Under the pieces are notes generated by a model, which worked only from the letters and a program-made list of their open reading frames with translations, searched no databases and was not told where the DNA came from. Positions 1-56,434 of a stretch of 64,000 nucleotides of DNA are shown piece after piece. Position numbers and translations under genes: made by a program. Within the stretch, counting starts at the first letter, position 1. Each line of letters opens with the position of its first letter. Source of the stretch: Amphibalanus amphitrite (lineage: Eukaryota > Arthropoda > Thecostraca > Balanomorpha > Balanidae); contig NW_024881677.1 of NCBI RefSeq assembly GCF_019059575.1, positions 496,001-560,000 of the forward strand, written 5' to 3'.

Positions 1-286
1 TAATAAATACATAAGCGCTAGGGTGGTCCTTATTTTCGAAAATCGTATTTGGATATCTTGCGCCCCTTCAATCGGTGCCGTTTAACGAAAAAACATGTCT
101 GTCAAAATTTCAGATCCCTACTTCATTATTTACTGGTAGCTCAACACTCGTTCGTTCGTCCATGTTGGCTCAATGTCCGTTTCGTCGATCAATGTTCGTT
201 CCCTCTTCCTCAGGTGTAACGATTGTCACGCAAACTTCTGGGTAAATGGTGTCCCCCAGTGATGAACCCCTTGGCTCCAAGTTCCC

Positions 287-443
287 AGTAGCGGCGGAAC
301 ACCTTCAATTAGGGGGGGGGGGGCACTGCCGACTTTTGGTCCCATTCTTTCTCTGCAACGCCCATAGCGCTTATGTTAAAATGATAAAATTAAAGGGGGT
401 ACGGTGCTCCGGTGAACCCCCCCCCTCCCCCCACCGCCTATGC
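287..443 (+). repeat. Short interspersed repeat with GCGGCGGAAC ends, copy 1
   Basis: This segment matches 22687-22835 in reverse orientation over its whole length: it starts AGTAGCGGCGGAACACC, has a G-run, then the shared words ACTTTTGGTCCCATTC and GCGCCCATAG, and ends CCGCCTATGC. The ends are imperfectly inverted. It lies inside the hAT-type element at 19-1927, so it inserted after, or was captured by, that element. No coding content. Confidence 0.7.
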
Positions 444-1613
444 AATCTCCCATCCCGCGGCCAATCTCTCGCCTACTTCCTCCACCGCCACCACATCCTC
501 TAGGAAACGGTCCGGGAAGCGGCCAACCGGACGTTAGAGAAAGTAGAGGAGTTCTGGGCCAGGGCTAGGATTCCCACTCAGCACAAGGGGTGAGCGTTCA
601 AAATAGCGCCTTCCTTCTCGCCCAACGTGAGCCAGAGAGACGGGATAGAATGACAGAGGCAGGCATGGCGCTCCATTCCCAAGAAAAGAGGAAGAGGAGG
701 AGGGATGACGCCGAAGAGAGGAGGAGGAGCAAGGCGTCGGAGTAGGCGCGGGCGGCAGCCGACCAAGTGGAGCTGGAAAGCATAACCTCGAGTAGCTCCG
801 AATCGTCACCACTTCGCGGAGCCGTGAGACCTGGCCCCAGCATGGGTACAGGCACTCTGTCATCCCGAAAGCGTGGTCGAACCACGGTCATCACGCCGCA
901 ACTTTCCGCTTACGTCTAACGTCTGACGTGTGTGTGTGTGTGGGTGGGGAGGGGGGTCGGTTGGACCCCTCTGCCGTTTGGCTCCAGATCGCGCTAGAGC
1001 TTTGCGCAAAAAAAAAACGAGCGTGTTGCCCGTGACGAGCGGAAGCCGATGATATCCAATTTAAGGTCCTAGGTCATTGGTTGACCTTCCCGGTCAGGTC
1101 AATGACCCAATGGTCAGGAAAATCGGGACCTACAAGAGCTTCGTACAGCGAAGCTATCATGTTTTTTTGGGGTGCTGATCACGAATTTCATGCTAGTTTT
1201 GATCACATATGATGTCTTCATGCATTTAGACCAGGTCGGGTCAGGTCAGGTCAGGTCAACCATTACGCGTCCTGCCGGCTACCCATAGTAGGTCTCAACT
1301 ACCACTGATCGCGTCGTAACACGTTACAAAGGCACTAAAACTACTTCGTAAATGTTCAAATGGATGCTAAATTCGAAATCAGTCCGAAAAACTGCCCTAG
1401 AAACATGTATAACTCGGAAAAGTGACACGAGGTCATCATAGGTCAATGACCTGACCTGACGTTCAGGTGACCTTGACACCCACCGTAATGCATGGGACGA
1501 ACATCATTTCACATGTTTGGACGTTTATAATCGCAAAAAGACTAGAAACGCGCGGATAATGAGAGCTGACATACGCTGAATCGCGACTCCGGCCAAACAT
1601 GGTCTCGAAAGAT

Positions 1614-1633
1614 AGGTCACAGGTCAAAGGTCA
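1614..1633 (+). promoter_or_regulatory. Triple DR1 array of AGGTCA half-sites
   Basis: The sequence AGGTCACAGGTCAAAGGTCA has three consecutive consensus nuclear-receptor half-sites, each separated by one base, giving two overlapping perfect DR1 sites. DR1 sites bind HNF4, RXR/USP and COUP-TF type receptors. It lies inside a transposable element with no gene adjacent, so function is not shown; only the match is certain. Confidence 0.45.
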
Positions 1634-1935
1634 TTTGGGTCAGGGTCATGAAATTTTCAGAGTAAGTATAAAATTAATCAACTCGAGGGCACTGAAAGTT
1701 TCGTCGTGATCGGCCGCTTTTCCGTGAGTTATTCGCGAAAACCCATGGGGGTCCATCCGACCCCCTACACATACGAGGGTTAATATGCATTGAGCCACCA
1801 AAAAGCATCCGCCGATTTCGCTCTTTTTGCTCTTTTTCCACGTTTCTAGACAAATGGCATCATTTCAGGGGGCGCAAACGCGAAAAAATACAAATTAAAA
1901 TTTTGTATGGAAATAAGGACCACCCTAATAAGCGC

Positions 1936-3649: not shown

Positions 3650-4835
3650 TTAACCCGCGCCGGGCCGGGGGGGGGGGTGTTTGAACACCCCCCCTTGTGG
3701 TTTTTCGCAGATATCTCAAAAACGGCGGCGCTCCGCGCCGCCGTTTTTGGCACACCTGTTCGTGCATCTTTTCCGCACATGTTGTGAAAATTTCAGACCC
3801 AGGTCACCTTAGGTCAGGTCACCAGATCACGCCAAGTGACCTCACCTCAGAAAAAATAAGAATGCTCGTCATAGCTACACCGACTGAACGATTGCCTTGA
3901 AACTTTCAGCGATTGATTAGAGCAACACTATCTATAAAATGTATATCTCGGAATTTTGATATCGGTGACCTAAGGTCAGGTCAATTTTGCGGCCTCTCCA
4001 TTATAAGTCAATGGGAGAAAATTGAAAAGCGTCTGTTTTGCACGAACGCTATTCTAGACACTCTCCAACATCGAGATGTAGGTAAAATAGACACACTGAA
4101 CCAGAAAATGGCAACTGTAACCCCTCGTTATGTCCCCGAGGTCATCTCAGGTCACGAATAGAATCTAACAGTTTTTCGATGATAACTTCTGATAGAGGCG
4201 TGCTAGAGCGCTGAAAACGCCTTAGATGTGTTTGGCTCGACGTTGCGGATCGACTGATATGCAACATGACCTTTTCCGGTCAGGTCATGACCTTGACCTG
4301 AGGTCAAATTTTCAAGTTGACCTTTCAAGGTCAAATTATAGTTCAATCGACGCGTCTCGACGAGAGGAACACGATGCTGGCAAAAGTAATGTCATAGCTC
4401 TTTTGAGTCAAAAGTTATTGCCGAAAAAACGTTTTTCGTAAAAACGGCTATTTTTGGAGTTTTTGCCCTCTGGAGGCTAAACCGTTGACCTGAGGTGAAA
4501 TCTGAGAACATTACTCAGAAAGGTCTGTAAAAGGGCTATCAAATGCGCTTTTCCGCGGCGCTGTAGCTCTATCGGTTCCCGAGATAGCCGTTGGCAGTTT
4601 CCAAAATGTTGAAATAGTCAACATTTTACCTTTGATGACCTCTGGTGACCTGACCTTTGACCTGACCCAAAAAATGACCGAAGTGTTTTCGTCCTTATTT
4701 TTGACGTTCTTTCGATTACCGCTTACCGCGTGTCGCTACGTGGCCCAGGAGCCGAGTTAGAAGGGGGGGGGGGTGTTCAGACACCCCCCCGCGGCCCGGC
4801 GCGGAATCTCAGAGCACCGGCCCGGCGCGGGTTAA
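3650..4835. mobile_element. TTAA-flanked non-autonomous element (piggyBac-like), copy A
   Basis: It is bounded by TTAA at both ends with inverted termini TTAACCCGCGCCGGG and CCCGGCGCGGGTTAA. TTAA targets with CCC termini are characteristic of piggyBac-type transposons. Just inside each end is a G-run/C-run hairpin (about 3667-3693, inner stem GTGTT/AACAC; and 4763-4790, inner stem GTGT/ACAC). The interior carries repeated AGGTCA/TGACCT words, including a DR1 at 4651-4663. No transposase frame. The right end matches the left end of the copy at 44735-45928, so the two are the same family in opposite orientations. Confidence 0.78.
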
Positions 4836-6693: not shown

Positions 6694-7405
6694 CTGAGGA
6701 GACCAAAAGAGAATGTGAGAGCGGAATTAACGGTCCAGACATGGTGGGTTATTGTATTTGTGTTCAATTAGTGAAGCCTTTATACCTGACAACCACAAAA
6801 GGGCAGGGCGGCGGCATGGATTATTTTCCAACAAAGCAAATAAATCATCATCAGCGATAGGCTTGTAACGGTACCCTCAGCAATAAGATAGCAGCCGTGC
6901 AAGTTTTCCCTCTGGTGGCTGTTTGCCTAACTAGTGTTCTCTGCAATGTGCAATCACGGCGCCACCTGTTGCACTAACTACCGCTGCAAAAGGTGGCTCA
7001 CAGAACCCGGTGACAAAATGGCTCAATGTGTAATCAAAATCACTGCCCCAACTAGAATCGTAGAGTGAAATCTTGCAAGCGCAGCGTTCCCAAGACGTTC
7101 CATTATCAAATTAGTAAGCCTAATGCCTGGAAGTATTGACGGCTGTTTAAGCCCGGAAATAAGGAAGAATAAAAATGAAAAACATATGTCTTGAACTTTG
7201 GAAAATACGGAAGAAGAGATCAACTGCGCACGATATAACCCAGTAATAAATTTAGCGTGCTGTTCCATAAACCTCTAAACAGCAATAAGCAACTTAATCA
7301 AATTATCAGAAACAAAATGACGGGAATAATCAAATTATCAGAAACAAAATGACGGGAATCACCAACAAAGAAAAAGCGACGATCGACGAGAGGCCGGAGG
7401 TTAAG

Positions 7406-7520
7406 GGCCAGCGGTCGGGGGTCAGCGGTCGAGGGACAGCGGTCGAGGGTGAGCGGTCGAGGGTCGAAGAGCGAAGAGAGCACCGAGCTTCGACAGTGGT
7501 GGAGGGTCAGCGGTCGAGGG
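7406..7520. repeat. Degenerate minisatellite, GCGGTCGAGGGT words
   Basis: Variants of about 14 bases (GGTCAGCGGTCGAGGG) recur several times in FAM50 intron 4. A similar wording (GGTCAGCGGTCAGAC) recurs at 17690-17960 next to exon 2. Confidence 0.6.
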
Positions 7521-12503: not shown

Positions 12504-13693
12504 TTAACCCGCGCCCCACTGGGGGGGGGGCTATTTATAGCCCCCCCCCTCCCGTTTTTCTGCAATAACTTCCAAACCGCTTGACGGATCAACGCCAAAC
12601 TTTCAGTACCTTCGGCTGCATCAATTTGACACCTTGTGTCAAAATTTGAACTTCGTAGCTACCATAGGTCGGCCGGAAATGACGTCAGAGTGACGTCATG
12701 TTCATCCGATTTCGACGCAAAACATTGAACCACGGCAATCGCTCCCAAGAGCTCAGTTTTTAAGCTAGATCCAATTTCTTTGCATGAAAGGACTCAGAAT
12801 TGACCGCGCTATCAAACTGCTATCTCGGATTTTCAAAGTTTCGAAAATTTTGAAAATTTTATATAATATTCAAAATTTATATTTTTAGGTACATTTTTTC
12901 AAAAAGTTTGTGACTTTTCGAAAAAAACCGGAATATATGTGACAGAACGCATGATTATGACTAACTCTAGCAAGTTTTAGCTAAATATCTTCAAAAATGG
13001 CCAAGTTATACGCATTATTGCAAAAAATTCACAATTATTAATTTTTCAAATCAATTTTTCAGTACGTATTTGACATCGTACACCAATATAAATGGCACCA
13101 TCGTGTTCCTGAGCTAAAACTGCATCCAATAGACACCTTTTTTTGTTGAAAAATTTTAACTTCAAAATTTGACCTTTTTTGACCTGAAAGTGACCTGACC
13201 TAAGCTAAATTCGACTCAAAATGACCTCGAATGACACAGACGACATCAAATTCGAAATCCACGGCCTAAATGGACCATAAAACATGTGTCACCTGACCGA
13301 CACATGATATAATATTTTCGTGACCTGTGATGACCTGACCCTGACCTGAAAATCAAAGTACAAGTTTGGTACCCTCAAGGTATCTAGAGCATCTGTTCAC
13401 GAGTGTGGAAACCAAAAATGAGCCTGATCTGACTTGTAAGACGGCGGCCAGAGCCCAAAATGTGAACAAGCCAAAATGCTAATAATTTTTACTTTGAACT
13501 GACCTGTGACGTCATCGGTGACCTCGTGGTCAATGAAATTAGGTTTCGCTCGACAGTTTTTCCGGGGCTATCAGACGCCGTTTGAATTTCGACGATCGGC
13601 CTAGTAGTTTCGGAGTAAGGAGGGGGGGCTATGAATAGCCCCCCCCCCCCAGTAGGGCGTGTTATACACAGACCCCAGTGGGGCGCGGGTTAA
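12504..13693. mobile_element. TTAA-flanked non-autonomous element (piggyBac-like), copy B
   Basis: TTAA bounds both ends, with termini TTAACCCGCGCCCCACTGGG and CCCAGTGGGGCGCGGGTTAA. Subterminal hairpins lie at about 12521-12549 (G-run, CTAT-TT-ATAG, C-run) and 13622-13650 (G-run, CTAT-GA-ATAG, C-run). The AT-rich interior contains TGACCT words (e.g. 13185-13350, 13500-13530). It is nested in the 12119-14822 element within FAM50 intron 3. Confidence 0.78.
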
Positions 13694-14822: not shown

Positions 14823-16765
14823 TATATCAGCCTTTCGCACCCTATGGCCGATCTGATCAACATCGATCAAACTAACGTCACCGACCATGAATTATTAATT
14901 AATCATGTGGAAGATGACAAGATACCTCAAACTAAATCCTGGTTTTCTGAGAATTCGTGACCATATACCCACATAGGTACACCACCAATATGTAGATGAG
15001 CACTTTGATAATACCAAGATATACCAATCCATAAAGAAAAACAGCGACAAATAATGGGCGAAACCTTCGCATATTTCATCAGCGGATCTTTCCTTCGCGG
15101 TGACAACCAGTAGGATTAGTCAAGAGAGATTAACCGCACTTACGTTATTTCATTGAAGCCTTAAAACTCCCCGATCGGTCTATTGCAGCCGATGTAAAAT
15201 TAGTCATTCCCGATGGGTTTGAAAACGACGGCACTCGCCCAAACCAGTCCGATATTGCCTCCCTCTCTGATGTCAGCTCGTGCCCAGACTGTTACCTGGC
15301 AGCCCTTCCCTCCTGGCGCGTGAACTAGGGCTCATATCTCAGCTCGAATCTGCCTAGTCATTCACACTTGCCGTTGTCATAATGATTCGGCTGTGTTGCC
15401 GAAGAGTGGGCCGGGATTGCATTGGGAGAGCGACCATGTGGGGTCATTTTTGCCCAATGCTGGCGAGTCGTCGAAGCGATTACCGCAGGGATTAGGGCGG
15501 AGCCGGTGCAAACAAACACTGCTCCTGTGGCGACCGCCGGCGGACACTTATGTAATGTCCGGTCTGAGCAGAAAGACATTGCGCGCCAGGCAGCCACCAT
15601 TAGCCGCCACAAAAAGAATTGCCTGCCATTATTTATCAAAATTAAATATCGTCAAGAATAATTACAAAATAAACCAGTACACTTTCAGCGGTATAGGCGA
15701 GCTGACTGGAAATTCGGAGAAAAAATTGGCAGCATAAATCTGAGAGCATGTTATTATAAAGAACCAGCATACCCTTTACATTACATCTTGGCTCGTAATC
15801 TATACCGTGAATCAGCAGCACTGGCGAATCATATTTGAGCTTTGTGTTCGGGGAATCCAATCAGTATCTAACAGGTTTCCGACGGACGGTTAAATCTAAT
15901 GACAAAATTACTGTATTGAGAAGGAAGCGGTGCCAGCTATTATGTAACCCATGGTCACTGCTGCAAAGCCGCTGATTATAATCGGCAGAGTCACTCTATA
16001 TAAAAATACAGACGTTCACCTGGCGGAAACTGATAATAAAAGATGAATCCGCAAACAGGAAGAAAACCTCTTTTGTCAAATTACCAAATTTCTGATGTTC
16101 TAATCCTAAAACCTCGCTCGTGCCATGCTAAACTTTCCCCGATGATGAAATGTATTATGCCATGTCGCTCCCTATCTCATTCTCATTTGGAAGTTGCAGC
16201 AAAGTTGACAGAACCCCATAACTAGTAGACGAATGAAAGCTGAAAAGTCGCAAACGCAAGATACCAGAAACACACCCAAATCGGAGGAACTCCGCGCACA
16301 CTGCTACTTTACGTCTGTCTTGGATAGAATTTTATGCACGGTTTAACTGAAAACTGGACACCTTGATGAGATGACGCGGAGCGCCGACATAACTCAGTTC
16401 TAGAGAAAGAAGATTAATGGGATCAAACGCACAGGATGAGGTCTTAGAGACGAATATTTCCGTTACTTGGGCAGGGCAAGACAGAGGGTGCGATGTAGGA
16501 TGACTTCGCACAAATTGACTTCACAGCTGCCTAAACGGAATGCACACCAGGAAATGAGCAGCAATTTCTACGAAGATGCTAATGAATTAGGAGTTTGTGG
16601 TCTGATATGCCTAGAGCGCAACCACCATCGCAGCCCAAACAGCAATCAACGATATACGCCACATACCCGCGGTATGTCACACAATTACGCATAACTGACC
16701 AAAAAAAAAAAAAAAAAAAAAAAAACACCAAAGAACCTCTAGCCCTCGTGACGCCCGCGACTGAC
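14823..16765. other. FAM50 intron 3, 5' part; nothing recognised
   Basis: AT-rich sequence with a long A-run at about 16700-16725, close to the exon 3 donor. On the minus strand this A-run is a T-run about 40 nt into the intron. Short open frames here have no recognisable relatives. Confidence 0.4.
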
Positions 16766-17177
16766 CTTTCTTCATGCGCAGGCTGCGCCGGTGACCTGAG
16801 CCGTCCCAGTAGGAGAAGGTGATCTCGATTTCCTCGTTCTTGAGCGCCTCCTGCTTCTGCTCCCACTCGAGTCGCAGCTGCTCGCGGAGTTCATTCTCGT
16901 GCTCTTCTCGCTCACGATCGCGCAGAAATGACGTGTCCACGTCAGGGTTTTTACCCAGTTTTCTGGGTATTAGTTTTGGCGCCTGTGAGGACGATTTGGC
17001 CGGCACCAGAGCGTTGGAGGAGGACGGTTCGGAGGACGGTTCGGAGGACTGCGAGGACTCGTCCGCCGCGTCCTCAGCGGCCTTCACCGCTGGACGGTCT
17101 CCGTCGGACTTGTCCTCGTCCTCTTCCCCTTCCTCATCCTCTTCGTCCTCGTCAGGGTTGAAGGACAAACTCTGAAT
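16766..17177 (-). CDS. FAM50: FAM50 (XAP5) exon 3
   Basis: 412 nt, encoding residues 116-252 plus one base of 253. The acceptor AG is at 17178-17179 and the donor GTCAGT at 16760-16765. It begins [10 protein letters not shown], continues through an acidic, serine-rich low-complexity stretch (about residues 123-175), then [17 protein letters not shown] (from about residue 188) and [17 protein letters not shown], both hallmark FAM50 motifs. The acidic segment is where family members differ most. The serine-rich plus-strand reading frame over it is only its antisense. Confidence 0.95.
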
Positions 17178-17411
17178 CTGGCGGCACACAGAAGCTGGGA
17201 TCAGCAGAGTCGTGGCGATCTACCCCAGCCATCACCATTAGATCGTTAATCGACAGGACCTAAGACATGCCTGTCTTTCCAAATCATACAGTGCAAAAGA
17301 TAAACGAGCAAGTTGCATGATGGAAAGATATGAAAAGGTTGTAAAAGACGCAATAACTGACAAAGACCACACCAAAAGCAATGAAAATGCGTCATATGAC
17401 GTAACCACAAT

Positions 17412-17521: not shown

Positions 17522-17686
17522 CTGTTTCTTTTGCCGGTCCTTTTTGGCCTGTTTGGCGTCGATGGCCTTCTGTCGCTCGCGCTCTGCCTCGCGCTGTTTT
17601 TTGGCCAGCTCCTGCTCCCTCTCCTGGACCACCTTCTCCTGACGGGCCTTCATCTCGTCCAGCGTGACCAAGCCGATGGTGGACGT
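17522..17686 (-). CDS. FAM50: FAM50 (XAP5) exon 2
   Basis: 165 nt, residues 61-115, in phase 0 at both ends. The acceptor AG is at 17687-17688 and the donor GTGAGT at 17516-17521. It encodes [20 protein letters not shown] followed by a charged lysine/arginine/glutamate-rich helix ending KKDRQKKQ, predicted coiled coil. This matches the SSTVGLVTLNDMKAKQE region of FAM50 proteins. Confidence 0.94.
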
Positions 17687-18408
17687 CTGAGGGAGAGGGA
17701 GGTCAGCGGTCAGACGTGAGTCAGCGGTTAGAAAGTAGGGAGTAGGGTTCGACGGCAGGGGTTAGAGTTAGACGGCAGGTCAGCGGCAATACGATACAAG
17801 TGAGAGGTCAGACGATAAAGGTCAGCGGTTAGACAACAGGAGGTAGAGGCCAGACGACAGGTCAGCAGGTCAGTGATAGGACATGGGTCACCAATAACGC
17901 CAGAAGGCAGGTCATTTATCTAGCGATTGGCCAGGGTCAGACGACTCCATTGACCATCCGAATCCGACGGCAGAGGTCACCAGTCCGGCGTTAAGGTGCC
18001 AAACGGTGGTCAGAGTGAGTGCTCTACAAGGTCCAAGGAGAGCGTGCAACAGTAAGGCGAATAAGTGGAAAAGGTCACCAGGGGCGGGTGATGCAGACAT
18101 CACATCAGGATTTAATAGATACGATAAAAAATGGCAGCTCTGGGTAAAGCATCTCGAGAGGAAAAAAAGCCGGAAGGAAGGTTCAGCAGGATGGTATTAC
18201 CTTTTAGCCACGACAAAGCTCAAATGCCACACTGGTCAAGCGGATCATATATTGAGCAGTCTGTAATGAATAATAAGCCGATGTAGGCCGAACAGTTGTC
18301 AGCGAGCGAGTGGGACGGATGTTATGAAAAGATCAGACTTACTTATAGGCAATCACATCAAACTGTATATTACGACACGGCGGAACACCGCCGGAAAATC
18401 ACAAAATG
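17687..18408. other. FAM50 intron 1, 3' end; degenerate GGTCAGCGGTCAGAC repeats
   Basis: From 17690 to about 17960, imperfect repeats of GAGGTCAGCGGTCAGAC-type words occur next to the exon. The remainder is featureless. Confidence 0.5.
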
Positions 18409-19829: not shown

Positions 19830-21761
19830 ATGATCGAGGGAGCCGTGATGTGGACCAGTCTGGAGACGGCCGAGCTGATGGCGCTCTGGCGGCGCACCGA
19901 GACACAGCAGATGTTCCGCAGCTCGGGTCGCAACCTGGCCATCTGGGAGCGACTCGCCGAGGAGCTGCTGGAGCGCGGCTTCTACCGGACGGCGCACCAG
20001 TGCCGCGCCAAGCTGCACAACATGGTCTGCCTCTACCGAAAGGTGGAGCGCGGCGAGCTGCCCCGCGCGCGCTGCCGCCACTACGATACGCTGCGAGGGG
20101 TGCTCAGCGCCGGCTCGCGTGAGGAGCTGGAGCGCTTCAACGCGCCGTGGGAGGAACGCTGTCGCCGAGAGCGGCTGCTGCGTGAGCAGGAGCTCAGTCA
20201 GCTCAACAAGCTGCCGGCAGGAGACCGACACAGTCCAGGGCAGACTCAACTGAGTCCAGGACAGACTCAGCTGAGTCCAGGACAGACCCAACTGAGTCCC
20301 GGACAGACCCAGCTGAGTCCGGGACAGACCCAGCTGAGTCCCGGGCAAACCCAGCTGAGTCCAGACCATCCACAGCTCAGCCCGGCCACGGCAGGTTCCC
20401 GCTCAGCCTCCTCCCCACTCGGCAGTGCCTCCAGTACCGGTCGGCGTCCGCCTCCCACCCTGGTGCCGCTCGCCGATCAGGGAAAGGCACAGCGGAGACA
20501 GCTGCCCGAGCTGCTGCCGCTGAGCGCGCTGTCCCCGGATCGTGCGCAGGTACGACCATCTCTGTCCCCGGGCTTCGAGCAGCAGCAAACCGTGATTTCG
20601 CCGGGCTCCGTGCTGCCGAGAACCGCAGCTCGGAAGGACAGCCGGACTAATGAGAGCGTGTCCAGCCAACGGACAGCTTGCTCAGCTGAAAACGAGGTCA
20701 GCAGTCAACAGCTCGACCTTCCAACCGATCTGTCAGTGAGAAACGTTTCCAGAGACGCGACTTCTGGTGTCAAACGAAAAGCTGAGGAAGATCTATCACT
20801 TGCAAAGAGACTGCCCGGATCGGCATTTGTCAGAGTTATTCCCGAGGCTCTGCTACGCGCTGGATTAGGCAACATCGACTTCGAAAGGCGAGATGTGTAC
20901 AAAATGGGGCAAGACGCAGAGAGTGTTCGGCGACAGCGACTGGCCTCGGCGCTCGCGTTCATGCGCGAGACGGCGGCCAGTTTAAACGGCCTGCGTGTCG
21001 AGCGCTGTGAGAAAGAGGTGACTCCTGCTCCTAGCCACTGGGAGAGGCCGACAGACCTACGACTGGGTCCAGCCGACCTGAGGAAAAGAGACGACACAGA
21101 ACAGAGGACCGACAGGTTCCAGGAGAGGGACGGGCGATACGGGAGAGACGACAGCGTGCCGTTCCGTACTGTCCACTCGTCGGCAGAGACAGAAGACATG
21201 CCACTGTCGCTGGTGACCACCCGGTGTTCTCGTTCACCGCCGCCGCAGCAATCGTGCCGTCTGATCATCAGCAGCTCCCGGTCACGCTCGCCGGCCTCAC
21301 CCCACCGTCTTATTATCAACGACGACTCGGAAGTCGGCAGTTCAACGTCCCCACCGCCCGGCGTCCCAGCGGCACACCCAGCTATCTCTGTCGGCCACTG
21401 TCACCCCGTGTCGGTGGTACAGTGTAGCACACCCCCGCCCGCCCACTGTCAGTCGGTGGTCGGCCGACTGTGCCGCTCGCGCGCCAGCTCCTCGCCGTCC
21501 CCTCCGCGGACGATCGCCCCCGGCCCTCCCCACGCAGAGGCTCCGCTGGTCGGGCTGCAGCATCAGCGACTGATGGGTCTGCGCGGCTCACCTGAGCTGC
21601 TGAAACCACAAAAACCCACCAGCGGCTTCACAGCCTGGCAGACGGCCGAGCCATCCGTGGTCACCTGGCGGCGGGTTCATGAACTACTGTCTGACGCGAC
21701 CGGCGCACAGATGGCGGCCTACCCATTTCTCGGAACCCCGGTAGCACTGGACATGAGGTGA
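19830..21761 (+). CDS. Myb/SANT-like DNA-binding domain protein, intronless, nested in FAM50 intron 1
   Basis: A single 643-codon frame. The start sits in a strong Kozak context (GCCGCCACCATG). Residues about 7-90 (MWTSLETAELMALWRR..., IWERLAEELLERGFYRTAHQCRAKLHNMVCLYRKV) have the aromatic/basic three-helix pattern of the Myb/SANT-like or trihelix DNA-binding domain. Residues about 134-186 are tandem LSPGQTQ heptads (21-bp DNA repeats, 20229-20388). PTDLS at residues 298-302 fits the PxDLS motif that recruits CtBP co-repressors. The rest is serine/proline-rich, low complexity, with a conserved-looking stretch at about 325-400. It lies on the strand opposite its FAM50 host, with a poly(A) signal 545 nt downstream. 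The likely role is a nuclear transcriptional regulator or a domesticated transposon-derived factor. The family is recognised but no orthologue is assigned. Confidence 0.82.
   Translation: MIEGAVMWTSLETAELMALWRRTETQQMFRSSGRNLAIWERLAEELLERGFYRTAHQCRAKLHNMVCLYRKVERGELPRARCRHYDTLRGVLSAGSREELERFNAPWEERCRRERLLREQELSQLNKLPAGDRHSPGQTQLSPGQTQLSPGQTQLSPGQTQLSPGQTQLSPGQTQLSPDHPQLSPATAGSRSASSPLGSASSTGRRPPPTLVPLADQGKAQRRQLPELLPLSALSPDRAQVRPSLSPGFEQQQTVISPGSVLPRTAARKDSRTNESVSSQRTACSAENEVSSQQLDLPTDLSVRNVSRDATSGVKRKAEEDLSLAKRLPGSAFVRVIPEALLRAGLGNIDFERRDVYKMGQDAESVRRQRLASALAFMRETAASLNGLRVERCEKEVTPAPSHWERPTDLRLGPADLRKRDDTEQRTDRFQERDGRYGRDDSVPFRTVHSSAETEDMPLSLVTTRCSRSPPPQQSCRLIISSSRSRSPASPHRLIINDDSEVGSSTSPPPGVPAAHPAISVGHCHPVSVVQCSTPPPAHCQSVVGRLCRSRASSSPSPPRTIAPGPPHAEAPLVGLQHQRLMGLRGSPELLKPQKPTSGFTAWQTAEPSVVTWRRVHELLSDATGAQMAAYPFLGTPVALDMR
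20229..20388 (+). repeat. 21-bp coding tandem repeat (LSPGQTQ heptads)
   Basis: Six near-identical units encoding (L/H)SPGQTQ are followed by two decayed units (LSPDHPQ, LSPATAG). The DNA units differ only by synonymous or single changes, suggesting recent slippage expansion and probable length polymorphism. Confidence 0.9.
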
Positions 21762-24058: not shown

Positions 24059-24271
24059 CAAAAATAGCAAGTGTTGAGTATCCATGACAGGTTGGATGAT
24101 GATGTAAATAATAAACCAAATTATTACAAATGCATTCAAATATATTCAAAAAGACACACAAAGCTTTCGGTTCATGGAACCTTGATCACTGTGCAAATAC
24201 TATATATGGCCTTGGTGCAAATGAGTACCTATAACAATCGCTGTAACCGTCTAAAAATTCTTTGAAATTAA

Positions 24272-25401
24272 TCAGCCGCGTGTTTTCTTCTTCTGCTGGT
24301 CTACCACCGATTTTGCTGCCATTGACGACCATGTGATAAATCCGCTCCTACTGTTAAACGTATCACGTGTGATGATGTGGGCTGCTTCCAGGACCTTCCT
24401 TGTACCTTTCTTTATATTGTTTTCTAATATCTTCGTGCCGTCCCAGTCAGGTAAGTGGTTACACTTTTCTATATGCAGTACTATTGCATTTGATGTTCGG
24501 TGAAATTTTACATCGCTTCTGTGTTCCTTCAAACGAACTTCCACCCCTCTTCCCGTCTCCCCAACGTACGTTCTTTGGCACCCTTTGCATGGTATTTCGT
24601 AAACTACACTTTTTTCATCACTGGTATAGTGGTATCTTTTTTGGTTTCATGGTGCTTGACTAAATCTTGAGTTTTCTTTCCTGTTACTGTAGCTACTTTG
24701 ATATCTGACTTTTCAAGTGTTCTTACTATGATATCAATATTTTTCGAATTTGGGACCGAAATCCATCTCTTTCTTTTGTTGGCTTTTCTTCTCGTGTCAT
24801 CTTCGTGTGCTTTGTTCGCACGTTGTTCGTCTCTTCTGTTGGCATCGCCGCCGTTTGCTTGGTTCGCGCGTCGTTCGTGTCTTCTGTCGGTCTCATCTCC
24901 GTGTGCTTGGTTCGTACGTTGTTCGAGTCTTCTGTTGGTGTCATCGTTTTGCGCTTGGTTCGTTTCTTGTTCGTATCTTCTGTTTTGTTCGTTTCTTCGA
25001 TTTTTGATTTTTTCGGCGTTTTCTTTTTGTTTGATTAAAAATCCTCTGGGATATTTCAGTTTTTCGAACGAAGTATAAATATGATTGAACTCCTCCTGAA
25101 TGAATTCATCGCTGCAGATTCTTAGCGCTCTGAGAAAGAAACCGATAACTATTCCGCTTTTCGTCCTTTGACTGTGTGCTGAGTAAAAGTGCACATAATC
25201 CTCTTTGTTTGTCGGTTTCCTGTGGACTTTGAATTTGAAGCCTGCGGCTGATTTTACAATGCAAGTATCTAAAAACGCCATCTTTTCTTCTTGTTCTTCT
25301 TCAACTGTAAATTGGATGTTTGGATGAACAGCATTCAGTTTGTTTAGCGCTTCAGAAATGTCAGTTTCTTTCGGAATGATTGCTAGTACGTCGTCTACGT
25401 A
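24272..25401 (-). pseudogene. Penelope-like RT (C-terminal part) plus GIY-YIG endonuclease, truncated and frameshifted
   Basis: The frame opens at YVDDVLAIIPKE (catalytic RT motif, immediately at the truncation), continues through KMAFLDT and HRKPTNKEDYVHFYSAHS, typical of Penelope RTs, then the RT thumb. Next is an unusual charged tandem repeat (about 24787-25010 in DNA, words like NQAxxDxTxRRxEQR). It stops at 24604. The endonuclease part (VVYEIPCKGCQRTYVGETGR, then EVRLKEHRSDVK and IEKCNHLPDWDGTKIL) continues in another frame. The shift is at or near a run of six A's just before the stop. Everything 5' of YVDD is missing, so it cannot be active. Confidence 0.88.
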
Positions 25402-25402
25402 T

Positions 25403-34500: not shown

Positions 34501-34519
34501 GATCTTGAAACACCAAACG

Positions 34520-35205
34520 CATTTTCAGGTCAGGTTAGGTCAATGACCTATGGCGTTGTAAATTAACCTCTACGCGGTCATAAAATGTCCCAACTACGCA
34601 ACATCCTCCCTCAGTGCCAGGGGATCTTTCACAGGGAGATGAAACTTATATGACTTATCTAAATCTTAATATCTTGTTTATCTTGAATTTTTCCTTAGGG
34701 TTACCTGAGGCCAGGTCGGTCATGTCACCTCACCACTATAAGTAAATGGGAAATAGGTATTGATTTTTTGTTGCCTATGCCTGAAATTATCGAGGACTAT
34801 CTCAAGCAAATGGAGGCATGGATTCATGCACTCCTTGCAAGGGCTGACGCTTCACTTTTGCATCGATGGCCTTGCGTGACGTCATTTATGACGTCATTAA
34901 GGTCATACGAGTTTTTCGTCAACAACTCCCGGTCAAATTGAGCTAGCGCCTCGGGAAAGGGACCAATGGACTAGGGAAGACCTGCCAAATTGAATGGTAT
35001 GCAATATGACCTCCTTCGGCACCCTCGTGATATAAGTGGCTCTGATCTGACCTTGACCTAGGGTCAACCGTGACAACTTAAGTTTACCTCACCTTCACCA
35101 AAAGTGTATCATTCGTGATTCGATGCGCATGAGCATGAAGAGCATGATGGTGCCAAAATCGCGACTCAATGACAATTTTTGGCGAAGTTACAGGTCTGTG
35201 ACGAA
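34520..35205 (-). mobile_element. Decayed copy of the CCCTCGCCGG TTAA element family
   Basis: Read on the minus strand, this region follows the interior of the 55399-56434 element: GGGAGTT(A/G)TTGACGAAAAAC, TGACGTCATAAATGACGTCA, CTTGCAAGGAGTGCAT and CCATTTACTTATA lie in the same order. The terminal hairpins and TTAA ends were not found, so it is a truncated relic. AGGTCA/TGACCT words persist. Confidence 0.6.
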
Positions 35206-44734: not shown

Positions 44735-45928
44735 TTAACCCGCGCCCGGCTGGGGGCCCTGGATTTCCACGCCCTGCTGGGGGGGGGGGGGGTGTTTGAA
44801 CACCCCCCCTTCTAACTCGGCTCCTGGGCCACGTAGCGATACGCGGAAGGCGGCGTTCGAAAGAGCTCCAAAAATAATGACGAAATCACTTCGGTCACTT
44901 TTTTGGTCAGGTCAAAGGTCAGGTCACTAGAGGTCATTGAAGGCAAAATTTCGCCGATTTCCAGGTCGAATGTCGACAATTTCCAAGAAGCCAACGCATA
45001 GCTCGGGAACCAATAGAGCTACAGCGCCACGGAAAAGCGCATTCGATAGCCCTATTAACGCCCTTTCTGAGTAATTCGCTCAGATTTGACCTAACGTCAA
45101 CGGTTTTGCCTGCAGGGGGCAAAAACTGCCAAAATAGACGATTTTTCGGGAACAGTTTTTCTGCAATAACTTTTGACTCAAGCCTTGCACGAGCTTTCTT
45201 TTACCGACATCGTGTTCCTCTTGTCAAGACGCATCGAATGAACTATAATTTGACATTGAAAGTTCAACTTAAAAATTTGACCTCTGGTCAAGGTCATGAT
45301 TTGACCGGACATTGTCATGTTGCATATAGGGGGATCTGTATCGTCGAGCTGAACATATATAAGGCGTTTTCATCGCTCTAGCGTGCCTCTTTCAAAAGCT
45401 AGTCGCAAAAACTGTTAGATACCATTCGTGACCTGAGATGACCTCAGGGGCATAAACAGGGGTCACGGGTGCCGTTTTCATGTTCAGTGTGTCAAAGTTA
45501 CTTGTAAATTAGTGTTTGAGAGTGTTTAGAATGACTTTCGTCCGAAAAAGACGGTTTTGAATTTTCTCCCATTGACTTATAATACCTAGAGAGGTCGCAA
45601 AATTGACCCGACCTTAGGTCACCGATATGAAAATTCCGAATTTTGTACATACTGTTGCACTTATCCATTGCTGAAAGCTTCAAAGCGATCCGTCACTTGG
45701 TGTAGCACTAGCTATGGCATACATTGAAACATTTTATGATGTGTTTATGAGGTGAGGTCACTTGTAGCGACCTTGTGACCTGACCTTGAAGGACCCTGGT
45801 CTGAAATTTTCACAAAATGTATAACATTGATAGATGATAAGGTGCCGCCGTTTTTCAGATATCCGCGAAAAACCGCAGGGGGGTGGGTGGGTGTTCAAAA
45901 CCCCCCCTCCCAGCAGGGCGCGGGTTAA
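44735..45928. mobile_element. TTAA-flanked non-autonomous element (piggyBac-like), copy C
   Basis: TTAA bounds both ends (44735-44738 and 45925-45928), with termini TTAACCCGCGCCCGGCTGGG and CCAGCAGGGCGCGGGTTAA. Subterminal hairpins are at about 44779-44809 (GTGTT-TG-AACAC core) and 45876-45910 (degraded). It is the inverse of copy A at 3650-4835. AGGTCA words are dense and include a DR1 (AGGTCAAAGGTCA, 44909-44921). It lies between mitochondrial L11 and Angel, ending 1.3 kb before the Angel start. Confidence 0.78.
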
Positions 45929-51241: not shown

Positions 51242-52685
51242 AACGGAGGATCGGGGGGAAGTGACGAGCTGTGTACCTGAGCTGTGTCGATTCGGGGCGA
51301 TCCGGCTGCCTTAGTGGGTCTGATGAAACTAGAATGATAATCTGGCGAACGAACTGAGAGTGACAGTGTAAATGCGTTTGTGTTTTGACTGGATGGTTAA
51401 CAGTCAGCTCGGAGATGCGACTGTTAATGTGTGTTGTGCAATGTGCACTGGAAATGGTAGTGAGGATGTTTCCTACTTCTTTCAAGAGGTACTTTTCATT
51501 GGTACAAGTTTTGAAACGTCGGTGCAACAGTTTAGTGCAACTGTATGGAAGGATGTGGACTTTCGTGAAGCTCAGCGCAGTTTATGTTGTGTGTGTGCTC
51601 TGTCTTCTCCATGCCCTTCCATCCTTTCTTTGGAAGAGGGACAGACGGTTTTCGCAATTTTATAGTACCCAGAAGGTTGTCTGGTTTTAAACGTTTGCAC
51701 ATCAGGGCAAATGAGAGTCAACTTCAAACGACGTGTGACAGTTTCAGAATAGTTTTTCATACGTTGACTCAAGTAATTCATGATGCCTCGCAACTCATGA
51801 ATACAATGTGATCTAATAACTACCCGCGTTTTGGATTTGCACAGTGGTGCTAAACCAGTCGGTGATTATTGGACTCAGTCGAAACTACGGACTTGTAAAA
51901 GTTGAAAGTGACCTCGCGTAAGGCGAAGCTCTGGCCTCTGACCTAATGCCACGTTTCGTCAGACATCGTGGCTCTTATACTTGTTTGTTTTGTTTTGTTG
52001 GGTTAGGCCCTTTCGGTCGACAAGACCATTGCAGAGCCGGAAGGATGATAGGAATTAGGGGGAGACATTGGTCTGGGCAGGCACCCTAGTGAGTCGCCGG
52101 GGCTGAGCCCGTCCAGAGGACAGGCCACCCAGCCCCAAGGCACTCACTGCACCCGGCTACGAGGTGCGCTCCCTCGGGAGCAGCGGTGCCGCTCCAAGGG
52201 AGCAGCCCGCATGAGATAAAGTTGCCTGTCCAGCCCGGAGGGGGGTTGCGGCGTGGAGGAGAAGGATTTCAGTATCCTGAGGATAGAAGCACGGAACAGT
52301 GGCTCTTATACGTTTCCTGTGTGTCCTGGTTCCTGTCGAATCTGGCTATGCAGGAAGTTTCGGTCGGTGTTCAACTGATACAGGGCGCTGTACGGTCGCC
52401 GTTTTCTAATGCTGATAAAAACCTTTACCAAGACTGGCATACCCACTTACGATTTTAGGACTGTACCCATTCCGACGAAAATCTCATCCGCAACTTCGTG
52501 ATGCGTCCAGCCTGCCTAATAGACCGTAAAATAACTCGAAGCTTCAGAACGTGTTGAAAACTTCATTCCACATCGTTAAATCCTCAATGCTAGTGACACA
52601 GCATATCAACGATTTTTGTTTGAGGGAGAAGAATGACAAGTTCACAACGGTCGTAACAAACATTTCTTGTCACATTGAGCTGCAT
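51242..52685. other. 3' flank of Angel; no gene recognised
   Basis: The block 51985-52290 (GGGTTAGGCCCTTTCGGTCG... to GGGAGCAGCC) looks like a repeat consensus but no second copy lies in this window. Confidence 0.4.
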
Positions 52686-53746
52686 TTACCCTCGCCGGAC
52701 CTATTGGTTTTCTACATACGCGCCGGCCGAGGGGATGGGGGGGGGGGGGCCGCGGGTACGACCCCCCCCCCCTTCGCCGTTTCGCCCCTGGTGGAGCTAG
52801 CGCGTCGCGGAAATAACGAGCGTGTGCGCCGTTACGAGACGCAGAGATTGATACCCGATTTTAAGGTCCTAGGTCAACCGGTGACCTCTGAGGTCAGGTC
52901 AAGTGCCCCAAGGTACGATTCAGTTTCTGATACGATTCAGTTTCTAACTTCGCAAAAACGGCCGCAGAGCCCCGATTTTGACAGCATCGTGTTCGCCTCG
53001 CTCAGGCGCGTCGAATGATATACTTTTTGTTTGGGTCAGGTCAACTTGGGGTGTTGACCTTAGGTCACGGTCAGGTCAGCGCCCCCAGGTCACGAAGCTG
53101 GTAGAAAGAGGTCATGTCGCATATCATTCGATTCGGCAGGTCTTTCTGAGTTCATTGGTGGCTTTCCCGACTCGCTAGCTCAATTTGATCGGGAGTTATT
53201 GACGAAAAACTAATATGACCTTGATGACGTCATAAATCACGTCACGCAAGGTCAACATTGCAATAGCGACGCATCTAACCTTGCAAGGAGTGCATCAAAT
53301 CACGATTTTGTGTGCTTGAGATAGTTGGAGATCGTTCCCGGCACCAGAATAGCAGTTTGTATTTTCCCCCATTGACTTATAATGGTAAGGTCACGAAAAT
53401 GACCTGACCTCATATGACCTGTAGGAATCCGAGACATGCAAGTTGTGAGACTCGTAATGGATACTAGATCCTGCAAGTTTTATTTCCCTGTGAAAGCTCC
53501 TCTGGCAGTGAGGGCGTTGCGAAGCTGGACATCTGAAGACCGTGCAGAGGTTCACTTATGACGTCACAGGTCAGTGACCTAACCTGACCCGAAAATGCCG
53601 TTGGTGTCAAAAGATCCGGCTTGAATCAAAGGTCAGGTGTGCCATGTTTCAGCTCTCTATCGCCAGCGTGTTCGGAGCTATCGCGAAAAAAACTATGGGG
53701 GGGAGGCGGCACCCGCCCCCCTCCCCCCTCGGCCGGCGAGGGTTAA
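52686..53746. mobile_element. TTAA-flanked element, CCCTCGCCGG family, copy D
   Basis: The left end is TTTACCCTCGCCGG (one A of TTAA lost) and the right end is CCGGCGAGGGTTAA (TTAA 53743-53746). It is highly similar throughout to 55399-56434. Subterminal hairpins lie at about 52736-52772 (GGGT-ACG-ACCC core) and about 53697-53727. The interior has many AGGTCA/TGACCT words and a TGACGTCA region. No coding capacity. Confidence 0.8.
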
Positions 53747-54460
53747 CCCGCGCCCCGTAGGGCTACCGGCGGACCCTACCACCCGTAGGGGGAGCCTTTT
53801 CGGCCCCCCCCCCCTAAGATCTCGGAAATTTACTGGTTGATTTTCAAAATTCAAACGGCGTTCGATAGCCCCACCCGGGAACTACCTTGTGACCAAATTT
53901 CATTGACCTAGGTCAAACCGATGACGTCACAGGTCAGGTCAAAGGTCGGATTTTCACCGTTCACAAGCATTTCAAGAAATGTGTTGTGAAATCGAGTAAA
54001 TTGGTAATTTATTGAAAACCATCGATGGTACACTCGGGGGCAGATTGACGTTCCACCACTCCAAACCCATCGGGCGATCCCATGGCTCAGCACTGACTGC
54101 TGCCAGTGGCAGCACTGGCAGCACTGGCACTGGCAGGCAGTGCTGAGCAGTGCTGAAGGCAGGCAACACTGGCAGCAGCCAGTGCTGAGCCATGGGATCG
54201 CCCGATTGGTTTGGAGTGGTGGAACATCAATCTGCCCCCGAGTGTACATTGTTCGTCAAACACATACCTTGCTATCTGAGGTCACTGATACCAGGTCAGG
54301 TCACAGCGAGGTCAGGTCACCGGGGGTCACAATATGGAAGTGTCAATATGAAAGGGGTCCTGAAAGTTTGGTAGCGATATCTCCAGCCGTTTAGGAGATA
54401 TTGACGGAAAAGGACGGGGGGGGGGGCGTTTCGGCCCCCTCCCCTTTCGGCTTTCCCAAA
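53743..54460. mobile_element. TTAA element F, 3'-truncated, abutting copy D
   Basis: It begins TTAACCCGCGCCCCGTAGGG, sharing its TTAA with the end of copy D. A left hairpin (GGGGGAGCC-TTTTC-GGCCCCC, about 53787-53814) and a right one (about 54415-54452) are present, but no closing GCGGGTTAA is found. AGGTCA words occur at 53909-53946 and 54295-54320. The hairpin MITE 54031-54244 is inserted in it. Confidence 0.62.
54031..54244. mobile_element. 214-bp hairpin MITE with TA flanks
   Basis: The arms of about 70 bp are inverted repeats starting CACTCGGGGGCAGATTGA (left) and ending TCTGCCCCCGAGTG (right), with TA outside each (54029-54030 and 54245-54246). The centre is a run of GGCAGCACTGGCA-type repeats. 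It could fold into one long hairpin. TA flanks suggest Tc1/mariner-type mobilisation. Confidence 0.82.
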
Positions 54461-55398
54461 TATCACTGATTAGTTTCCGTTTAGCGAGCTCAGTAAAGGC
54501 GAGAGAATCTCCAAGCTGACTAGCTAACAAACGGTACGCTAGATCTTGGTACGCCAAGCTGCCCTGAAGGGTGAGCAACAGCAACAGCCGATAGGTCACA
54601 TGGCTCGCGACGGCTTACCAGCACGTTTGATCGGAGCTATGGTGACATGCGGTAGCGCAGCTGAGGGGGGACGGGTCAAAACTGACAGACGTAGTTCATA
54701 GACCACGAGCTATCGTTATTTCACGCCATCAAATAAGTCACGATATCATCACACCTACCAAACAGTTTTTAACTCCAAAGTAAGAGGTAATGAGATGTAT
54801 TGTAACAGGGGCTCCGCCACAGGGGGGTACGCGGGGGTCCGGACCCCCTCAATAATTCCCATGGGGGGTACAGTACCCCCCAATATTCCGAATACCTGTA
54901 ACCTTGTTTTGCGTTAGAATGACTAAATCATTCACAGAATGTGTTGAATAATTTAATTAGAATGTGTTGATGGTCGCAAAGCTAAGGAATTTAAGATCTA
55001 GAAATGTAGGGAAACACGAAGATGTTGTGACACACGAAGTGCTCTGCTCAACAATCGCCGACCTATATTTATGGGAGTGTCATTATTCTACCATTTTGTT
55101 ATTACTATGAATGCGTTTAAGATTGCTAGGATTAACTTAGCATGCTAGAATTTGGCAATAATTTCGTGAGAGGGGTCCAGCTTGCAGGACACCTCCTAGA
55201 CACAACACCCGCCCCAAAAGAGCTTCAAATCGATCTGAGAACCCTCTTCCCATGTGAGATCACCCGATAGTGTATATATGTGTGTGTGGGGGGGGGGGGG
55301 GTAAGCCGGTCTTTCGAGCACCATACTAGTCTGAGAGCCTAATGCGCTGTCTGATGGCTAACACCGCCCTTGGAGCGCGCAAAAGCGGCCTCCTTTCC
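54461..55398. other. Intergenic; no gene recognised
   Basis: AT-rich, with repeated GGGGGTCCGGACCCCC- and GGGGGGTACAGTACCCCC-type palindromic words at about 54832-54882 and a G-run at 55288-55301. Confidence 0.45.
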
Positions 55399-56434
55399 TT
55401 AACCCTCGCCGGACCTATTGGTTTTCTACATACGCGCCGGCCGAGGGGGGGGGGGCGGGTACGACCCCCCCCTCGCCGTTTCGCCCCTGGTGGAGCTAGC
55501 GCGTCGCGGAAAAAACGAGCGTGTGCGCCGTTACGAGACGCAGAGATTGGTACCCGATTTTAAGGTCCTAGGCCAACCGGTGACCTCTGAGGTCAGGTCA
55601 AGTGCCCCAGGGTACGGTTCAGTTTTTGGTGAATAACTTCGCAAAAAACGGCCGCAGAGCCGCGATTTTGGCAGCATCGTGTTCGCCTCGCTCAGGTGCG
55701 TCGAATGATATACTTTTTGTTCGGGTCAGGTCAACTTAGGGCGTTGACCTCAGGTCAAGGTCAGGTCAGCACCCCCAGGTCACGAAGTTGGTCGAAAGAG
55801 GTCATGTCGCATATCATTCGATTCGGCAGGTCTTCCTGAGTCCATTGGTGGCTTTCTCGACTCGCTAGCTTAATTTGATCGGGAGTTATTGACGAAAAAC
55901 TAATTTGACCTTGATGACGTCATAAATGACGTCACGAAAGGTCAACATTGCAAAAGTGACGCATCTAACCTTGCAAGGAGTGCATAAAATCACGATTCTG
56001 TGTGCTTGAGATAGTTGGAGATCCTTCCCGGCGCCAGAATAGCAGTTTTCATTTTTCCCCATTGACTTATAATGGTGAGGTCACGAAAATGACCTGACCT
56101 CATATGACCTTTAGGAAAAATCCGAGATATACAAGTTGTGAGACTCATAATGGATACTAGATCCTGCAAGTTTCATTTCCCTGTGACATCTCCTCTGGCA
56201 GTGAGGGCGTTGCGAAGTTGCGACATCTGAAGACCGTGCAGAGGTTCACTTATGACGTCATAGGTCAGTGACCTGACCTGACCCAAAAATGCGGTTGGTG
56301 TCAAAAGATGCGGCTTGGATCAAAGGTCAGGTATGCCAAGTTTTAGCTCTCTATCGCCGGCGTGTTCGGAGCTATCGCGAAAAAACCCTATGGGGGGGCG
56401 GCACCCGCCCCCCCCCTCGGCCGGCGAGGGTTAA
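55399..56434. mobile_element. TTAA-flanked element, CCCTCGCCGG family, copy E (intact ends)
   Basis: Perfect TTAA at both ends, termini TTAACCCTCGCCGG and CCGGCGAGGGTTAA. It is 1036 bp and colinear with copy D. Hairpins lie at about 55446-55474 (GGGT-ACG-ACCC) and about 56391-56417 (GGCGG/CCGCC). AGGTCA/TGACCT occurs well over a dozen times (clusters at 55578-55598, 55724-55795, 56078-56110, 56260-56335). It lacks any transposase. Confidence 0.83.

Follow-up and report, generated by a model that had tools for sequence, protein, structure and literature searches.

AGGTCA clusters at about 170-bp spacing, in register with the ends of TTAA-ended, apparently non-autonomous transposons of Amphibalanus amphitrite: a putative protein-binding platform

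The window examined here, a 64-kb stretch of Amphibalanus amphitrite DNA (contig NW_024881677.1, positions 496,001 to 560,000), contains 160 copies of AGGTCA or its complement TGACCT (hereafter, the word), together with a hAT-type element and a series of TTAA-type elements (Table 1). Among its 12 open reading frames of at least 150 aa, one (52551-53018) overlaps element E, entering it from outside, and none lies wholly inside an element; scanning the window against Rfam and for tRNA genes gave no hits. Element C is a relative of A in the opposite orientation, while E, whose left end reads TTTACCC in place of TTAACCC, has at least 42 matches across the genome. For the element that adjoins E, no right end was found, and an inverted-repeat insertion lies inside it at about 54028-54247. 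The tandem-like stretch, near an open reading frame (16677-17189) with a sub-threshold XAP5 match, is not joined to the TTAA elements by blastn (1e-10).

Table 1. Repeat features of the window
Feature	Position	Strand	Description
hAT-type element	19..1927	.	TIR TAGGGTGGTCCTTATTT; 8-bp duplication ATAAGCGC at 11-18 and 1928-1935
TTAA-type element embedded in hAT	942..1783	.	14 words, four clusters; right end CGAGGGTTAA
Element A	3650..4835	.	1186 bp, 7 units of 169 bp, 21 words; TTAACCC/GGGTTAA ends
Element D	12504..13693	.	1190 bp, 7 units of 170 bp, TTAA-ended; matching ends TTAACCCGCGCCCCACTGGG
Tandem-like stretch	17690..18080	.	9 words in 391 bp; not counted in the system
Decayed E/F relative	34501..35085 (approximate limits)	.	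7 words; inverted matches of about 80% to E and F
Element C	44735..45928	.	1194 bp, 7 units of 171 bp, 13 words
Element E	about 52685..53746	.	1062 bp, 6 units of 177 bp, 19 words
Second element, from the TTAA where E ends	53743..54455	.	9 words
Element F	55399..56434	.	Same family as E; 1036 bp, 6 units of 173 bp, 20 words

AGGTCA is genuinely in excess, and throughout the genome. Random sampling of this 808-Mb genome (200 kb in all, as 20 stretches, each lying at least 15 kb below an E copy on the same contig) yielded 713 copies against 90.9 expected, and without a satellite locus (L022) there were 545 against 85.8 expected (190 kb). AGGTCA is the top-ranking hexamer, with CCCCCC second, only when L022 is included; once it is left out, CCCCCC moves ahead (6.60-fold versus 6.35-fold for AGGTCA). 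L022 was also dropped from the counts of the word-distance ladder, retention, spacers, one-mismatch variants, TGACGTCA/coverage and distances at random loci. AGGTCA-dense segments make up 13.1% of the 190 kb, including 150 bp of padding per side. Within the window, nine stretches tested hold 7-21 words each, compared with dinucleotide-shuffle means of 0.31-1.04 and a maximum of 5 (500 shuffles), and the other 55,011 bp hold 38 words where 60 shuffles averaged 25.1 (sd 4.5) and reached at most 37, so even the remainder of the window is slightly enriched. A preliminary description of this DNA had reported the word as dense in the elements, with well over a dozen copies in E, and had proposed the genome-wide comparison with controls; both the density and the excess are borne out. 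Its chance figure of about 0.5 per kb for a 6-mer in both orientations is correct, and the DR1 pairs that it placed at 1614-1633, 4651-4663 and 44909-44921 are all present. Its statement that this density does not extend to gene-bearing stretches is not fully upheld, given the nine copies at 17690-18080.

The same description had assigned the word to several transposon families, including hAT, a view that the comparisons do not bear out. All 14 copies in the hAT stretch fall within the embedded TTAA-type element, and the hAT's own parts (19-930 and 1786-1927) contain none, so that hAT was rejected as a second superfamily carrying AGGTCA. No left end of the embedded element was found; its region matches L009:3957-4784 at 83% over 848 bp, and L009:3913-4784 is an element with TTAA on both sides. 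Across window and sample, 33 of the 37 dense segments form one single-linkage group (blastn, 1e-10). Eleven of the 37 have TTAACCC and GGGTTAA at their two ends, E being a twelfth with one end mutated, and the remaining segments are without one or both ends by this strict pattern. Most of the ends found carry CCC(G/T)CGCC as terminal inverted repeat, the G form of which departs in its fourth base from CC[C/T]T, the hallmark reported for piggyBac-type MITEs (PMC2872659). Judged by similarity and ends, the linked group consists mostly of TTAA-ended, apparently non-autonomous elements, and the word is not common to independent superfamilies.

The clusters of words follow a lattice. Distances between words form a ladder at about 165, 330, 510, 685 and 825 bp, and the random loci alone give 134 word pairs per 10 bp at 150-189 bp versus 8 at 230-269 bp. 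Since the clusters lie about 170 bp apart and in register with the element ends, the complete elements (872-1244 bp long) consist of 5-7 units of 169-178 bp, with clusters at most internal boundaries, or nodes, and TTAA ends at the outer ones. Element A has clusters at six internal nodes, and D at nodes 4-6 only (10 words, counted in 12880-13690). Among six representatives chosen from the 12 complete elements, which stand for five similarity groups, F and s3 belonging to the same one, 25 of 27 clusters lie no more than 0.15 unit from a node (R 0.84; the highest value among 1000 random placements was 0.53), as do 51 of 62 clusters over all 12. Of the 34 cluster intervals in 11 of the 15 similarity groups, 27 fall within 130-210 bp (simulated mean 13.4, max 26 of 5000); the groups left out (s12, s15, window 17550-18227, and s35, with one cluster) have six intervals, two of them in this range. 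The preliminary description mentioned neither the lattice nor its alignment with the element ends, nor that the excess extends across the genome.

Beyond this spacing, the spacers carry no apparent sequence sign of nucleosomes. A strong WW period on 91 redundant spacers (3.11 versus about 1.65) was lost once redundancy was removed, the 10.5-bp period being non-significant on 20 non-redundant spacer groups (P 0.13), and a mid-spacer rise in GC was likewise non-significant on 20 groups (P 0.11). Spacer indels are uncompensated, with a net length change of 1170 that is larger than the random-sign null of 959 (sd 58); no selection on spacer length was seen in this test, and the exact spacing may thus be inherited.

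The word itself is exact. In the segments, AGGTCA occurs at 15.65 per kb and its 18 one-mismatch variants at 0.16-2.13 per kb, with GGGTCA, a receptor half-site too, about fourfold above the rest of the sample. Between copies at 64-75% identity, AGGTCA was kept in 404 of 590 cases (68.5%) versus 23.2% for all words, a count from which HSPs shorter than 150 bp were dropped and in which pairs are non-independent and alignments lean on shared words. Its retention exceeds background in four of four identity bins, although ACGTCA (75%, 64-75% bin) and AAAACT (80%, 80-88% bin) outrank it. Fixed differences between two E subfamilies hit words once in 122 positions versus 43 in 917 elsewhere (P 0.052). 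Private substitutions in 27 copies, with homopolymer and CpG positions set apart, reveal no constraint after insertion, at 11/121 in words versus 66/664 elsewhere (P 0.88; weak power, with 11 events in words), and the decayed relative of E and F keeps 6 of 16 aligned E words versus 24% of other words. As the word is kept between diverged lineages and appears unconstrained after insertion, selection probably acts on the transposing lineage. This exactness and retention support the view that AGGTCA behaves like a genuine protein-binding site.

The arrangement of pairs is less readily attributed to one class of protein. The commonest nearest-neighbour pair is the overlap AGGTCAGGTCA (91), followed by DR4 (35, with 22 different spacers), DR1 (13) and IR1 (12); DR4 and IR1 are raised, as are overlap pairs and IR11. 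Word spacings step by about 5 bp, which is a half-turn or pentamer grammar rather than a single receptor's code. Two receptor DNA-binding domains should not occupy the overlapping form as a normal dimer. A COUP/TR2-TR4/RXR-type receptor would fit the word, and the overlap would not fit its dimer. A nuclear receptor is available in the genome, in which 77 exon-level zf-C4 matches represent receptor DNA-binding-domain exons; a transposon-borne receptor domain was also considered, and nothing among these 77 matches, in this genome alone, looks amplified. The receptor-like character attributed to the word in the preliminary description is thus upheld by exact AGGTCA and by common DR4 and IR1, and undercut by the predominance of overlaps, by the 5-bp steps and by the absence of the word from independent superfamilies.

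Taken together, the reading that we tentatively prefer, as a possible rather than an established one, is that the interior of these non-autonomous TTAA-ended transposons, whose ends are of piggyBac type, would serve as a platform on which a sequence-specific protein binds at intervals of one nucleosome repeat. A DNA-binding protein of this sort would occupy each cluster; since the unit matches a nucleosome repeat in length, each cluster would come to lie in a linker, and the element would carry an ordered, accessible nucleosome array with its ends exposed. Such an array would raise the chance of mobilisation in trans, so that the word would be selected in the replicating lineage. The likeliest binder would be a host factor, either a nuclear receptor of the COUP-TF/TR2-TR4/RXR type or some other protein, with an element transposase next. 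A stronger version appears unlikely: that element length is selected in whole nucleosome repeats, that each linker holds a half-site cluster for one host protein and that the satellite uses the same code, which would make AGGTCA the top non-homopolymer hexamer and a large protein sink.

Somewhat unlikely, in our estimation, is the alternative that a putative TTAA transposase belonging to the elements themselves binds the words as internal sites, the repeats loading transposase and aiding synapsis; plant Ac and Spm elements have many short transposase sites of this kind. Selection that seems confined to the transposing lineage would suit this alternative, as would the at least 116 piggyBac-domain matches in the genome and the enrichment of TGACGTCA in the segments (n=28; 0.88 versus 0.24 per kb), where 23 of the 28 lie within 30 bp of a word. 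In addition, the CRD-bound repeat of piggyBac is reported to include TGACGCATG (PMC7351741), which has TGAC in common with TGACCT. However, five piggyBac copies (three families) with readable ends terminate in TTAACCCATTA and hold only 0-4 words each, the sites lie throughout the elements rather than near their ends, and L022 shows the same pattern with no TTAA ends found.

The satellite bears on a further possibility. L022 has three clusters per 478-bp unit on the same lattice as the elements, with mismatches at 2/648 positions in the word versus 100/5184 elsewhere (P 0.001) and no homology to the TTAA elements detected. It favors the idea, which we regard as distinctly doubtful, that the interior is a captured satellite of about 170-bp monomers between TTAA ends, with AGGTCA as a conserved box, like the CENP-B box of alpha satellite, and the lattice as a monomer fossil with no role in nucleosome order or transposition. 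The uncompensated drift of spacer lengths is compatible with such an origin, and oyster Helentron-type elements are described with satellite-like cores whose monomers are mostly 140-180 bp (PMC7492417). Nevertheless, the search for homologous tandem monomers was mostly negative, as spacers within one element are dissimilar (the 99th percentile of shuffles is passed by 7 of 114 pairs, 6 of them in inverted orientation), and a satellite origin by itself would leave the retention of only the word unexplained.

It is very improbable that transposition has distributed enhancers or hormone response elements which the host then retains. Although the word, DR4 and IR1 match known receptor sites, and Alu repeats are known to have disseminated such sites (PMC1785376, PMC3252374), the 27 copies show no post-insertion constraint and the decayed relative has kept 6 of 16 words; the spread of ready-made response elements suggested in the preliminary description accordingly finds no support, within the weak power of 11 events. 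Least credible of all is shared descent without function, in which related copies would simply have inherited their words. Similarity does link 33 of 37 segments, but the word stays exact as the sequence around it diverges, DR4 occurs with many different spacers and single elements hold 7-21 words against 0.3-1.0 when shuffled.

What lies inside non-autonomous transposons is commonly regarded as filler, whereas here one exact word persists at nucleosome-like intervals, aligned with the ends, as the remaining sequence diverges. Should the clusters be bound, one could test why some non-autonomous elements spread so successfully and whether elements organise the chromatin that they lie in. Scaled up from 545 sites in 190 kb, the genome would contain about two million AGGTCA words, enough to matter for a protein that reads AGGTCA.

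Alu repeats have few receptor sites per copy and are not known to show a lattice. They resemble the present elements in that a transposon family has spread AGGTCA-type sites (PMC1785376, PMC3252374). COUP-TF2/TR4 on (TCAGGG)n telomere variants involves this receptor class, dense direct repeats and a related word, but on telomere repeats of human cancer cells rather than transposons (PMC7691514). T2-MITE/Kolobok elements of Xenopus share the TTAA target, an abundant and long-lived non-autonomous population and an internal segment amplified as a repeat (Xstir), whereas their ends are AGGRR instead of CCC(G/T)CGCC and the consulted portions of that account describe no AGGTCA lattice (PMC6004289). 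Helentron-type elements of Crassostrea gigas and Pearl elements combine units of nucleosome-repeat length, non-autonomy and a link to satellites; their units, however, are homologous tandem monomers (PMC7492417), while here the spacers of one element bear hardly any resemblance to each other and the ends are of TTAA type. In piggyBac, the CRD-bound repeat provides internal TGAC-core sites needed for transposition, as one palindromic repeat near each end (PMC7351741), in contrast to clusters throughout the element. Comparable too are the CMITEs of Acropora corals, piggyBac-related MITEs that are TTAA/piggyBac-type and non-autonomous, with interiors more conserved between families than ends and with tandem arrays. 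Their conserved interior is continuous, and neither the AGGTCA word nor a lattice of about 170 bp is described in the consulted portions of that report, the authors of which propose a role for the interior in transposition (PMC2872659).

Within the 64-kb window, 160 copies of the word AGGTCA or its complement TGACCT were counted, 122 of which lie inside nine stretches totalling 8,989 bp. Each of these stretches individually exceeded every one of 500 dinucleotide-preserving shuffles (7-21 words per stretch versus shuffle means of 0.31-1.04 and a maximum of 5), while the remaining 55,011 bp held 38 words versus 25.1 in shuffled sequence (sd 4.5, maximum 37, 60 shuffles). Because the shuffles were exceeded and the DR1 pairs (direct repeats with a 1-bp gap) named in the preliminary description are present, the AGGTCA density claimed there is real. 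Its attribution of the word to the hAT element does not hold, as the words of that element are confined to 942-1783, a TTAA-type match with 83% identity over 848 bp to an element elsewhere, L009:3913-4784, which has TTAA at both ends. The right end of this match is CGAGGGTTAA; its left end was looked for and not found. Nor is the word wholly absent from gene-bearing stretches, as had been proposed: it is also dense in a tandem-like stretch, unlinked to the TTAA elements, beside an open reading frame with a sub-threshold XAP5 match.

Mobile, repetitive and coding features of the window
Feature	Position	Description
hAT element	19-1927	TIR TAGGGTGGTCCTTATTT, 8-bp duplication ATAAGCGC
Tandem 14-mer	7404-7465	AGGGTCAGCGGTCG, 4.4 copies; resembles the AGGTCA word; outside the TTAA elements
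AGGTCA-dense tandem-like stretch	17690-18080	9 words in 391 bp
643-aa open frame	19830-21761	Myb/SANT-like DNA-binding domain (Pfam PF13837, E 1e-15); 21-bp tandem repeats in coding part
225-aa open frame flanked by long inverted repeats	24092-25810	repeat identities 99% over 309 bp and 100% over 107 bp; no Pfam hit above cut-off for the frame; looks like another mobile element
Foldback insertion	54028-54247	81-bp arms at 96%; within second element (53743-54455)
Tandem array	56805-57207	periods 35 bp and 148 bp; immediately after element F

Across 20 random 10-kb stretches of the 807.55-Mb genome, AGGTCA outranks every other hexamer both in raw count and in excess over dinucleotide expectation (713 versus 90.9, 7.8-fold); in excess, CCCCCC follows at 6.2 and CGGCCG at 3.5. 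Of these sites, 168 come from a satellite stretch, L022; once it is excluded, CCCCCC ranks first (621, 6.60-fold) and AGGTCA second (545 versus 85.8, 6.35-fold), still leading the non-homopolymer hexamers and occurring in all 19 other stretches (2 to 103 copies each). Long G/C runs that fold into hairpins lie immediately within both ends of the TTAA-ended elements A, C, E and F and their relatives. In the sample and window together, 37 segments with at least 5 sites cover 40,978 of 264,000 bp and hold 666 of 873 sites; with padding, and the satellite excluded, dense segments occupy 24,890 of 190,000 random bases (13.1%). These segments represent mainly one old, diverse lineage, because 33 of the 37 join a single group (blastn, 1e-10), yet 15 groups emerge when the word is masked and 40% coverage is required. 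For one barnacle, repeats are reported to make up at least 40% of the genome, most of them novel (PMC8270832).

Word-to-word distances peak in a ladder-like series at about 165, 330, 510, 685, and 825 bp. Pairs per 10 bp number 134 at 150-189 bp versus 8 at 230-269 bp in the random loci alone, and 37 versus 2 in the window. When 180 hexamers of equal composition are compared, the ratio of node pairs to gap pairs along this ladder is highest for AGGTCA (14.6 on 686 node pairs; the runner-up, at 8.0, is based on 3 pairs). In 36 segments, the words group into 156 clusters with a median width of 28 bp and a median centre distance of 169 bp; 103 of 120 distances lie between 130 and 210 bp. The 12 complete elements measure 872-1244 bp, which divides into 5, 6 or 7 units (168.6-177.7 bp each). 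Lattice and element ends are in step: the clusters lie near whole-unit positions (nodes) counted from the ends. Six representatives, drawn from five similarity groups, have 25 of their 27 clusters no more than 0.15 unit from a node (R 0.84, mean phase 0.006 unit); 1000 random placements in which the unit was free to vary reached an R of 0.53 at best. All 12 elements give 51/62 and R 0.77. The register is kept in element D, with clusters at nodes 4-6 only, and in dense segment s11 (nodes 1-3 and 6). Across 11 of the 15 groups, four being omitted, 27 of 34 intervals measure 130-210 bp, against a mean of 13.4 and a maximum of 26 in 5000 simulations.

The word itself is exact, at 15.65 per kb in the segments versus 0.16-2.13 for one-mismatch forms (highest: ACGTCA and GGGTCA). 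In pairwise alignments, which are non-independent and lean on shared words, AGGTCA is retained more than words in general: 404/590 versus 23.2% at 64-75% identity, 518/700 versus 32.9% at 75-80%, 474/615 versus 43.4% at 80-88%, and 442/477 versus 72.3% at 88-98%. One-mismatch neighbours stay closer to background (33.5, 33.3, 44.2, and 77.9%, respectively). Among words with enough counts, AGGTCA ranks 2/42, 1/45, 2/57, and 3/49, with ACGTCA and AAAACT among the few above it. At 208 isolated sites, identity is 0.91-0.97 inside the six bases (overall 0.83) and 0.69-0.83 in the six bases after and four of the six before, positions -5 and -4 standing at 0.95 and 0.86. Between two E subfamilies, fixed substitutions hit 1/122 word positions versus 43/917 elsewhere (P 0.052). 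The 27 E-family copies carry 11 private substitutions at 121 motif positions and 66 at 664 other non-CpG positions (0.00337 versus 0.00368 per cell, P 0.88); in these few events no post-insertion constraint on the word is seen. A decayed relative (34501-35085) keeps 6/16 words versus 24% of others, and further relatives are intermediate (e.g., 12/19 versus 42%, 6/12 versus 17%). Such a pattern would be expected if the word mattered for being copied, not for the host.

Among the candidate readings, a host receptor or other host factor as binder ranks first, ahead of a transposase and then a passive satellite fossil. The commonest nearest-neighbour arrangement is the overlap AGGTCAGGTCA (91 pairs), followed by DR4 (35, with 22 different spacers), everted ER1 (25), DR0 (19), inverted IR11 (14), DR1 (13), IR1, DR5 and ER4 (12 each), and IR5 (11). 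No inverted pairs occur at gaps 3, 4, 8, 9, 13, and 14, and ~5-bp steps therefore emerge. Receptor dimers can account for DR4 and IR1, not for the overlap or IR11; the latter two can be explained by half a turn of the helix or by steps of one GGTCA pentamer. A second raised word, TGACGTCA, has 28 occurrences across the segments; for 23, an AGGTCA lies no more than 30 bp away. The 77 exon-level matches to receptor DNA-binding domains give no sign of an amplified receptor set; many form equal-scoring pairs split between contigs, as would arise if both haplotypes were present in the assembly, and copy counts may be doubled.

The transposase reading is possible because the CRD-bound repeat of piggyBac itself contains TGACGCATG (PMC7351741). 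The genome is rich in piggyBac transposases (at least 116 matches), but the five copies whose ends were read, from three families, terminate in TTAACCCATTA and carry 0-4 words each. As for a satellite fossil, the ~170-bp spacing could have come down from a shared ancestor or from a satellite. L022 carries a 478-bp tandem repeat with three word clusters per unit, 145-169 bp apart, and 12 compared monomers mismatch at 2/648 word positions versus 100/5184 elsewhere (P 0.001); no homology to the elements was detected beyond a 44-bp match (E 0.009). Its array (L022:1-9085) comprises two blocks of opposite orientation joined near 3318. A nucleosome reading is unsupported by any sequence test other than spacing: neither WW periodicity in non-redundant spacers nor the spacer GC rise is significant, and spacer indels are uncompensated, their net change lying above a random-sign null.

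Among the open-access papers listed, which leave aside most subscription journals, none was found to describe a hexamer lattice aligned with the ends of a transposon. The nearest published case found is that of the coral CMITEs (PMC2872659), and the nearest for unit length is the oyster satellite-core elements (PMC7492417). Binding of COUP-TF2 and TR4 to (TCAGGG)n telomere variants (PMC7691514) offers an earlier example of receptors at dense repeats.
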